A stretch of DNA of 64,000 nucleotides from Hyphomicrobium sp. (GTDB lineage: Bacteria > Pseudomonadota > Alphaproteobacteria > Rhizobiales > Hyphomicrobiaceae), in the NCBI RefSeq assembly GCF_003987855.1, contig NZ_RXIZ01000004.1:132220-196219 (forward strand), read 5' to 3'. Position numbers and translations under genes: made by a program. The notes below the pieces were generated by a model. That model saw only the letters and a list, made by a program, of their open reading frames with translations, was not told the DNA's origin and did not search any database. This document shows positions 61,478-64,000 of the stretch, in pieces (position 1 is the first letter of the stretch; each line of letters opens with the position of its first letter).

Positions 61478-61488
61478 GCCGCCTTAGC
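61454..61488 (+). repeat. Inverted-repeat copy 1: tRNA-His leader and 5' end
   Basis: The segment from TATCCCAAGCCG through the 12-bp palindrome GCCGAATTCGGC to the tRNA bases GCCTTAGC recurs, inverted and nearly intact, at 61687-61720. The first 25 bases match exactly; the tRNA part differs by a small indel. Confidence 0.9.
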
Positions 61489-61554
61489 TCAGTTGGTTAG
61501 AGCGCTAGATTGTGGATCTAGAGGTCCCCGGTTCAACTCTGGGAGGCGGTACCA
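61478..61554 (+). tRNA. tRNA-His (GTG), alphaproteobacterial type without G-1
   Basis: The gene has acceptor stem GCCGCCT with AGGCGGT (G1-U72), D-arm TAGCTCAGTTGGTTAGAGC, anticodon stem CTAGA/TCTAG with loop TTGTGGA (anticodon GTG), T-arm GGTTCAACTC and encoded CCA. The base before G1 is T, so no G-1 is encoded, and position 73 is A. Most bacteria have G-1 and C73; the loss of G-1 with A73 is an established alphaproteobacterial trait. AT-richer DNA begins right after it. Confidence 0.96.
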
Positions 61555-61654
61555 ATACAATCAGTAGCTTACTTGGATTGCTCGTTCCGCACGCCTCCTA
61601 AACTTCCCACTTCCTACCATCTCCCTACCATGGTTGCACACTTGGAGCGCTCTG

Positions 61655-61926: not shown

Positions 61927-62433
61927 ATGCCGATTACTATTTCAGACGTGATGATAGCCGCCAGCACATTGGCTAGTCCGGTGATCGCTCTAACAGTCCA
62001 GAGAGTAATGGATGATCGCCGCATAAAGAAAGATCGCCAACTCGCTGTCTTTCGGACTCTCATGGCTACACGAGCAACTAACTTAGCACCCGATCACGTA
62101 GCAGCCGTGAACGCTGTGCCTATCGACTTCTACGGCAACAAGGACATTCTGGATAAGTGGCAGGAGTACTACGATCACCTTTCTAGAGAAGACCTTAGCA
62201 TGGAGGCTTGGGCACTCCGACGAATAGACCTGATGAACTCGTTGCTCTCCTCGATAGGCCGATATCTCAATTACAAGTTTAGCCCCTCAGACATTCAGAA
62301 GATTTATTATCCCAAAGGCCACGGTTCGATTGAGAAGGCTCAAACCACTGTGCTCGATAAGTTGGCAAGCTTCTTGTCGGGAGACACCGCAGTGAAGATG
62401 GAAGTGACTAAACTTCCGGGCACGGGTGAGTGA
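61927..62433 (+). CDS. Membrane-anchored hypothetical protein (DUF6680-like)
   Basis: The 168-aa protein (GGAG upstream of the ATG) has one N-terminal hydrophobic helix (about residues 4-25), a basic RRIKKDRQ stretch on the cytoplasmic side, and a soluble domain with FRTLMATRATNLAPDHVAAV and IDFYGNKDILDKWQEYYDHL. From memory these match the DUF6680 pattern, which should be verified. Function is unknown. It is 59 bases upstream of the deoxyribosyltransferase/TIR-like gene on the same strand, likely one operon. Base composition is AT-richer than the core genes, which suggests transfer. Confidence 0.75.
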   Translation: MPITISDVMIAASTLASPVIALTVQRVMDDRRIKKDRQLAVFRTLMATRATNLAPDHVAAVNAVPIDFYGNKDILDKWQEYYDHLSREDLSMEAWALRRIDLMNSLLSSIGRYLNYKFSPSDIQKIYYPKGHGSIEKAQTTVLDKLASFLSGDTAVKMEVTKLPGTGE

Positions 62434-62492
62434 TAATGAGTGCGTGCGGATATTAGAATCTTAATCGATTGCGTGATGGGGAGGAATGACTG

Positions 62493-63242
62493 GTGACGAA
62501 TGCCAGCTCCGCAACAAGACGATGTTTCGTGATCTCACCTATTGGTGATCCCGGCTCGCCATTTCGATTGCACGCCGACATGGTGTTGGAATCAATTATC
62601 CGGCCCTCTCTTCCTGAATTAGAAGTGCAGCGAGCGGATGAATTCGGGGGTCCTGAGATGATCTCGGACAAGATGATTGAAGCTATCACGACCTGCGAGC
62701 TAGCTGTCGCGGACCTGTCCTTCCTCAACCCCAACGTTTTTTATGAGGTTGGATTAAGGCACATGTCCGAAAAGCCGGTAATTCACATCTGTTCGGAAGG
62801 TACGAAGCTTCCTTTCGATACTTACGGAGTAGGCACCATCTTCTTTGATGTATTGAATTATCACAGCCACTTAGCAGCTCGCAAGAAAATCAAAGAAGCG
62901 GCATCAAAGGTCCTAGCTACTGGATACAAGGTCAGCAACCCAGTCACGCAAGCTCGCGGATCAATGGCGTTGGCAAAAAGCGCAGACCCGCGGGACGTGC
63001 TAATGTCTAACCTGTTAAAGGAAGTGGAGGAGCTGAAGCGCGAGATTAGAAGTGAATCTCGAGAAGCGAGAAGGAGGTCAAGAGTATCTGACCTCTTGGC
63101 AGCGTCAGCTAATTCCGATGTGCCCTCATGGGTTCAACTATCCAAGCCAGCGTGGTCAATCGACACACCAGACAAGAGATGGCCCACGCGCAAAACGGAT
63201 CCTGAGTTAGCACCTAAGAAGCCAGATGAACCCTCAGACTGA
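62493..63242 (+). CDS. Nucleoside-deoxyribosyltransferase/TIR-like nucleotide-processing protein
   Basis: A GTG with GGGGAGGA upstream opens a 249-aa protein. The N-terminal domain (about 9-140) begins RCFVISPIGDPGSP, continues with RADEFGGPEMISDKMIEAI and ADLSFLNPNVFYEVGLRHM, and has Glu85 in the position typical of the catalytic acid of deoxyribosyltransferase/TIR-like folds. The remainder is a charged coiled coil (about 170-200) and a Pro-rich tail. Related domains appear as NAD- or nucleotide-degrading effectors in prokaryotic immune systems. No enzymatic role is shown here. It is paired with the membrane-anchored gene upstream. Confidence 0.75.
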   Translation: MTNASSATRRCFVISPIGDPGSPFRLHADMVLESIIRPSLPELEVQRADEFGGPEMISDKMIEAITTCELAVADLSFLNPNVFYEVGLRHMSEKPVIHICSEGTKLPFDTYGVGTIFFDVLNYHSHLAARKKIKEAASKVLATGYKVSNPVTQARGSMALAKSADPRDVLMSNLLKEVEELKREIRSESREARRRSRVSDLLAASANSDVPSWVQLSKPAWSIDTPDKRWPTRKTDPELAPKKPDEPSD

Positions 63243-63362: not shown

Positions 63363-64000
63363 TCAATCCAGGCCCGCGAGTATGTCCTCCGCCGAGGTGA
63401 TCCCCACTTGAGGGTAGATCGTCCTTTGTCTTTGCACGTCCTTCTCGAACGGGATCTGAATCTGCCTGCCCTCAAAATTTGAAGAGAGCGACTTTAATCG
63501 CCTATTCAAAAACACCACTCCTTTTGGCTTCCGATGCTTGATTAGCCCTCGCTCGACGCACGCATCTATGAAGTACTTGAGCGGGGCCGGTTCCTCCTTT
63601 TGGGAGACGCACCATTGCAAGTAATCATCGTGGGCCTCCGAGCACCCTAGGCTTTCCTGCATTGTCTCCTCGAGCCTGTCGTTGATGTAACGGCTGACCA
63701 CATCCATATCCGTGCGGTAAGACTCGGTGGCCTCCACACATGACCTTGGCAGTTCCCCTAAAGTGTCCTCGCTGAGGTACTCCCTCGCTCCCTCTGCCAA
63801 CCATGCAAAGATACCTTCCCGCTCCTCTCGCAATAAGCGATCTTTCAGGCCGGGCATCTTGGCCTTGCCTTCAATCTTGGCCTTGAACGGTATGACCACT
63901 ATTCGCCTCCAGAATCCGTGCGAGGCATCTTTGGCTCCTGGCAAGTGATTGGCTTGAAACCAGAGTTTGTGAGAAGGCCTAAATTCAAAGGTCGACTTGT
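63363..64000 (-). CDS. P4/D5-type phage or plasmid primase-helicase, C-terminal part (5' end beyond window)
   Basis: The frame enters from the right edge without a start and encodes at least 212 residues. KSTFEFRPSHKLWFQANHLP and GFWRRIVVIPFKA match the C-terminal end of the SF3 (D5_N/P4) helicase module, where the insert 'E-F-x-P-x-x-K-L' and 'RR-x-x-x-I-P-F' are conserved. The final 110 residues form the winged-helix/D5-like tail. Such proteins initiate replication of satellites, plasmids and integrative elements. An internal ATG at 63944 is not the real start. Confidence 0.88.
   Translation of the reverse strand, partial: KSTFEFRPSHKLWFQANHLPGAKDASHGFWRRIVVIPFKAKIEGKAKMPGLKDRLLREEREGIFAWLAEGAREYLSEDTLGELPRSCVEATESYRTDMDVVSRYINDRLEETMQESLGCSEAHDDYLQWCVSQKEEPAPLKYFIDACVERGLIKHRKPKGVVFLNRRLKSLSSNFEGRQIQIPFEKDVQRQRTIYPQVGITSAEDILAGLD

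Follow-up and report, generated by a model that had tools for sequence, protein, structure and literature searches.

Two genes at the tRNA end of an integrated element

Toward the end of a 64,000-nucleotide stretch of DNA from Hyphomicrobium sp. (contig NZ_RXIZ01000004.1; the whole stretch is called the window below), two small genes adjoin on the + strand, at the transfer RNA (tRNA) end of an integrated element. The first (61927..62433; ATG start, 168 amino acids) encodes a member of the DUF6680 family with a hydrophobic N-terminal helix. The second (62493..63242; GTG start, 249 amino acids) encodes a TIR/deoxyribosyltransferase-like protein that we label TIRL, with a domain of this type at about residues 8 to 144, a coiled-coil helix at residues 166 to 207, a disordered tail, and a glutamate, Glu85, within the motif NPNVFYE. 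The gap between the genes is 59 bases, and GGAG-type ribosome-binding sites, judged by eye, precede both starts. An earlier model reading of the letters (the original prediction) had placed both open reading frames (ORFs) exactly here, had pointed to the FVISPIG and NPNVFYE signatures that TIRL indeed contains, and had suggested a possible sensor-effector pair. The evidence below leads us instead to regard TIRL as a single-gene accessory of a satellite-like element and the DUF6680 protein as independent cargo, a reading that we consider reasonably likely.

The surroundings agree with the tRNA-linked island of AT-richer DNA, beside a P4-type primase, that the original prediction had described. 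Guanine-plus-cytosine content falls from about 60% to 50 to 51% in the 62- to 64-kb part of the window, and the tRNA-His gene (GTG anticodon; 61478..61554, + strand; ARAGORN) is the integration target. Its last 55 bases form the left attachment repeat (61500..61554, + strand), and because an exact-repeat script found them again, unchanged, at C17:202378-202432, beyond the window, we take the element to run from position 61555 to this distal repeat, a length of 8,659 bases (8.66 kb). A reverse-strand ORF at 63363..63998 holds the C-terminal portion of a P4-type (D5-like) primase, matching TIGR01613 at 5.7e-31 (107.5 bits, for the fragment, against a cut-off of 108.7); it continues past the window end to C17:197102, and the primase matches D5_N at 7.6e-34 (Pfam). 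Farther along the contig lie a number of small ORFs and, at C17:200719-202071, a tyrosine integrase (Phage_integrase, 3.3e-17, plus an arm DNA-binding domain, both from Pfam). Integrase, tRNA attachment repeats, and P4/D5-type primase, features by which P4-like satellites are recognized, are all present. The element is integrative and satellite-like.

The regulator gene flanking the element was matched in 22 of 22 genomes of the genus sample. Its orthologue (78 to 85% identity) occurs in 10 congeners; a further 11 have as their best match a paralogue at 42 to 44%. In 6 of the 10, tRNA-His lies inside 1.5 kb of the orthologue, so that the tRNA-His site is empty in these congeners; the left flank also aligns clearly in three of the six.

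Sister elements and the slot beside TIRL

A primase search covering 248 relatives gave 28 matches, and seven primase regions (L211 to L217) were examined closely. L211 belongs to the same genus and L212 to the same family; their elements, both at tRNA-Arg, have repeats of 47 and 46 bp, respectively. These two have the closest primases, and in both TIRL sits in the equivalent slot, its transcription converging with that of the primase, and DUF6680 is absent. A search with the three TIRL sequences over 103 genomes of the family gave matches in nine. Beyond the three elements already described, these include G003, whose element, L291, is the fourth of the set: it lies at tRNA-Thr, its repeat is 53 bp long, and it carries an integrase, TIRL, and a different replication gene (Prim-Pol at 7.9e-24, AAA_25, and DnaB_C). 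The five remaining matches adjoin neither this primase nor this integrase. Computed from coordinates, the window's element, the two tRNA-Arg sisters, and L291 measure 8,659, 8,139, 8,126, and 8,529 bases.

The gene upstream of TIRL differs in each. It is the DUF6680 gene in the window's element, a lipoprotein-like ORF in L211 (LPAM_1 at 0.026, below cut-off), and in L291 a gene for a DUF4145 protein (L291:8836-9513; 1.7e-10) that overlaps the TIRL start; in L212 no ORF of at least 80 amino acids lies upstream. DUF6680, a variable cargo gene, is thus absent from all three sister elements carrying TIRL. Best local identities to the window copies are 65.5% (L211), 56.8% (L291), and 46.9% (L212) for TIRL. 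The integrase gives 45.6%, 49.4%, and 40.8%, in the same order, and the primase, which two of the sisters have in common with the window's element, gives 50.8 and 40.7%. Compared over their full length, the genes diverge alike. By these alignments TIRL is conserved as well as the element's core genes, and it has therefore probably traveled with the element for a long time as its neighbor was exchanged.

On the side of the elements themselves, the integrases of the four (L030, at tRNA-His, with L211, L212, and L291 at tRNA-Arg, tRNA-Arg, and tRNA-Thr) are related, and one of these Hyphomicrobiaceae elements, L291, replaces the D5-type primase by a Prim-Pol/DnaB-type protein. In a viral contig, L087, 27 bases separate TIRL from a P4-type primase of this kind.

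Recurrence of the gene pair

The gene-neighborhood survey that the original prediction had called for gives its sensor-effector pair no backing. DUF6680 was found in 4 of 100 relatives; in the class and phylum samples the figures were 8 of 387 and 14 of 397 genomes (13 of these 14 above cut-off), the window's genome being included each time. A TIRL relative was present in none of 40 other extended DUF6680 loci. Of these 40, 19 come from the 22 other genomes with DUF6680, 2 from the 5 plasmid records, and 19 from viral contigs, the viral loci including near-copies; 28 extend for 2 kb or more on each side. Three further genomes were seen as short loci only (G024, at a contig end; G675, in broken pieces; and G796, below cut-off). 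Conversely, DUF6680 was found in none of 146 TIRL loci (80 viral, 64 genomic, and 2 from plasmids), of which the viral ones are the best 80 of 226 stretches. L218 and L219, both from Hyphomicrobium, very likely duplicate the organisms of G005 and G059 and do not count as independent. The TIRL family occurs in 44 of the 387 genomes of the class sample, and both families occur together in two: the window's genome, and G245, which has them on separate contigs; 0.9 would be expected by chance. With the three sister elements added, adjacency of the two families recurs nowhere (0/40, 0/146, and 0/3), an outcome that the original prediction had itself named as grounds for giving up the pair.

No other family emerges as a regular companion: among 88 scanned same-strand neighbors of TIRL relatives (123 found), none occurs more than three times among the 25 of 82 families displayed. 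In the gap between the DUF6680 and TIRL genes, promoter-like sites are at chance level (2 found against 1.4 expected in the region).

Predicted fold and relatives of TIRL

TIRL matches the phage family phrog_3634 at 2.3e-39 and no Pfam family above cut-off; DUF4062 was not matched at E ≤ 1. In PADLOC, which was run on three element proteins, TIRL gave a weak match to the profile "Effector TIR" (5.5e-4); the other two proteins, scanned with an eye to the cognate partner genes of Thoeris, CBASS, and Pycsar (ThsA or a nucleotide cyclase), gave none. The predicted fold is flavodoxin-like, as in NDT, DNPH1, and TIR, which places TIRL in the TIR/deoxyribosyltransferase (TDS) class, as first proposed. 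The top structural matches to the model are MilB, an N-glycosidase acting on cytidine monophosphate (CMP) or hydroxymethyl-CMP, and DNPH1, and the TIR structures SfSTING and RPS4 fall inside 1 Z unit of these; Rcl (DNPH1) is also a weak match of the TIRL profile across the right region (E 0.15). Glu85, whose loss in close homologues would have spoken against the assignment, is invariant in 62 of 62 aligned relatives. Secondary-structure prediction gives a strand at residues 70 to 74 and a helix at 80 to 91, with Glu85 in this helix, which fits the conserved glutamate that stands at the start of the helix after strand 3 in the TDS class and suggests that Glu85 is catalytic. The N-terminal domain is thus predicted to fold like nucleotide N-glycosidases, deoxyribosyltransferases, and TIR nicotinamide adenine dinucleotide (NAD+)-cleaving enzymes (NADases), with the glutamate retained.

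By tblastn, TIRL relatives occur in 40 phage records, every one below 60% identity and most from Streptococcus and Staphylococcus phages. In the eight phages examined, TIRL is a single gene, annotated as hypothetical and confirmed by the TIRL profile. Opposite-strand genes lie on both sides of it in five (SA13, Javan37, SM1, phiARI0923, and Javan566) and on one side in Javan527, and in phiEf11 and DO134P1 it is codirectional with its neighbors. In Javan37 and Javan527, TIRL shares the orientation of the repressor and opposes the antirepressor, an arrangement expected of genes of the lysogenic state. SLATT was not matched among nine neighbors scanned, from six of the eight phages. In SM1, DUF4145-type genes flank TIRL (L321:1409-2086, 5.5e-4, below cut-off; L321:3727-4407, 1.2e-14), and a narrow profile placed DUF4145 in 2 of 157 TIRL loci of at least 5 kb and 0 of 47 others. 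Together, L291 and SM1 make DUF4145 a possible recurrent partner, the cases being too few to say more.

In 37 of 127 nonredundant relatives, TIRL is preceded by at least 200 residues. Several phyla have relatives of about 400 residues with TIRL at the C terminus and a long N-terminal region without a convincing Pfam match (L224:9275-10480, L255:9257-10498, L227:9275-10483, L231:9170-10492, and L234:7282-8499). In another relative (L064:706-2433) the N-terminal half resembles a caspase on visual inspection (LLIANSEY and LDCCHSG), and L279:9365-11143 joins TIRL to a Macro domain at the C terminus (PF01661; 1.1e-4, 22.5 bits against a cut-off of 22), an ADP-ribose-binding fold here adjoining a possible NADase.

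The DUF6680 protein

The first protein matches Pfam DUF6680 (PF20385) over residues 4 to 163 with 151.9 bits (1.8e-44; cut-off, 23.2), as the original prediction had surmised, and because this match lies far above the cut-off, we take the reading frame to be real. The membrane anchor claimed for it is plausible but borderline for this protein: its best 19-residue Kyte-Doolittle mean is 1.60 (residues 3 to 21), and a value of 1.6 is reached by 16 of 19 members of one alignment (A1) and 10 of 14 of another (A5). AlphaFold2 gives an all-helical model with one long helix at residues 5 to 47, at moderate confidence, and the model has no telling structural match. Members of the family begin with a hydrophobic stretch, after which come conserved FRxLMxTR, HVxALN, and YxP motifs.

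DUF6680 is itself cargo of mobile elements. With narrow profiles, an integrase was found in the flanks of 9 of the 40 extended loci and a P4-type primase in those of 8 others, 7 of which are related P4-like contigs. In these satellite contigs (L167 to L172 and L174) the DUF6680 gene lies between the primase and a SymE-like gene, and a plasmid copy of this neighbor, in L026, is annotated symE. A search of the PubMed Central literature found no paper using DUF6680 by name.

Discussion

Our preferred reading, which we hold to be somewhat probable, treats the two genes apart. TIRL, the single-gene accessory of the element, is by analogy probably an anti-phage N-glycosidase or NADase, and the DUF6680 protein is probably separate, exchangeable cargo, an inner-membrane-anchored protein with a role of its own. 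TIRL would be expressed from the integrated element and would receive a signal from an infecting phage through its coiled coil and tail; the signal would cluster the catalytic domains, which would then break the N-glycosidic bond in NAD+ or in a different nucleotide. Cleavage would stop the infected cell, as for SpbK, which is carried on ICEBs1, and for Swarozyc.

Several points weigh against this reading. Cleavage, substrate, activation, and defense are all inferred. TIRL reaches only 14.3 bits against Nuc_deoxyrib_tr (PF05014; cut-off, 28.8), a family matched at E ≤ 0.01 by only 9 of 62 relatives. The very best structural matches are nucleotide hydrolases, and the fold cannot separate NAD+ from (deoxy)nucleoside monophosphate substrates. 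TIRL is absent from five of the seven primase regions examined (L213 to L217, with more distant primases) and is therefore not a component of every such element; the set holds only three sister elements; and the DUF4145 genes near TIRL in L291 and SM1 could mean a partner.

The ranking of MilB and DNPH1 speaks for the possibility that TIRL is the element's nucleotide-pool enzyme, a DNPH1/MilB-like nucleoside-monophosphate hydrolase or transferase that aids replication or counters the nucleotides of a helper phage. The weak Rcl match also fits, as does the position of TIRL beside a replication gene in four of four elements. Yet the two TIR structures score nearly as well, TIRL relatives are fused to sensor-like domains, a trait more of regulated effectors than of housekeeping enzymes, and TIRL is transcribed against its neighbors in most of the eight phages; we consider this rather unlikely. 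Alternatively, TIRL could take its partner from an exchangeable upstream slot, filled by DUF6680, DUF4145, or a lipoprotein-like protein or left empty, with another trigger or location supplied in each case. The slot between tRNA and TIRL does differ in all four elements; in L291 the start of TIRL is overlapped by DUF4145, and in SM1 DUF4145-type genes lie on both sides of TIRL. However, L212 lacks an upstream gene of that minimum size, DUF4145 is rare across TIRL loci, and DUF6680 is widespread without TIRL, and such partnerships appear quite unlikely. Similarly improbable is a Hyphomicrobium-type satellite family built on one retained TIR-like N-glycosidase, with integration site, replication gene, and upstream partner swapped and the slot supplying interchangeable triggers or membrane executors that retarget the effector.

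That DUF6680, as anchored sensor, and TIRL, as effector, make up one two-gene immune system, as originally proposed, would suit their common strand, the short gap, and its chance-level promoter-like signal, but the pair is found in none of the 40 and 146 loci, TIRL occurs without DUF6680 in three sister elements, and no neighbor family is frequent; we judge it very unlikely. The same independence of the two genes makes it extremely improbable that TIRL is a toxin held back by DUF6680 to maintain the element, although two small adjoining genes on a mobile element would fit such an addiction module.

With TIRL taken as a single-gene accessory, several known systems offer comparison. As a compact, tRNA-integrated element with an integrase and a P4-type primase, it resembles the P4-like satellites with a defense hotspot (Rousset et al. 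2022, PMC9122126), which carry immunity-type genes, TIR proteins included, beside their core. It differs in that the TIR-like gene stays in one slot and the integration tRNA, replication gene, and neighbor vary; none of the P4 packaging genes was recognized, though they were not specifically looked for, and small ORFs of unassigned kind remain. Like SpbK (PMC12847820), from which our working model is borrowed, TIRL is a single-gene TIR-class protein on a mobile element, but it lacks a Pfam TIR match. With the Swarozyc/DUF4062 TIR-like NADases (PMC13174449, preprint) it shares a deoxyribosyltransferase-related TIR-like core, the conserved glutamate, a helical stalk, and the single-gene format; it differs in having no DUF4062 match and, in place of a comparable auxiliary domain, only a predicted coiled coil and disordered tail. 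The TIR-DrHyd-SLOG class (Iyer et al. 2022, PMC9503650) matches in fold and in the occurrence of TIRL relatives in Staphylococcus and Streptococcus phages. The Firmicutes phage TIR domains described there are linked to a two-transmembrane SLATT gene, which was not matched among the nine TIRL neighbors scanned here. The nearest family of TIRL, phrog_3634 (PHROGs), and DUF6680/PF20385, to which the window protein belongs, are both without assigned function.

These results carry a caution, that adjacency at a tRNA island does not make a system: here the neighbor was swapped and TIRL retained. They also show DUF6680, widespread and unstudied, as mobile-element cargo in its own right. Should TIRL prove to act in defense, alphaproteobacterial satellite-like elements would have in it a portable anti-phage enzyme made by a single gene and related to proteins of Gram-positive prophages. 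It would stand at the border of the nucleotide hydrolases (DNPH1/MilB) and the TIR NADases, where substrate is unreadable from fold.
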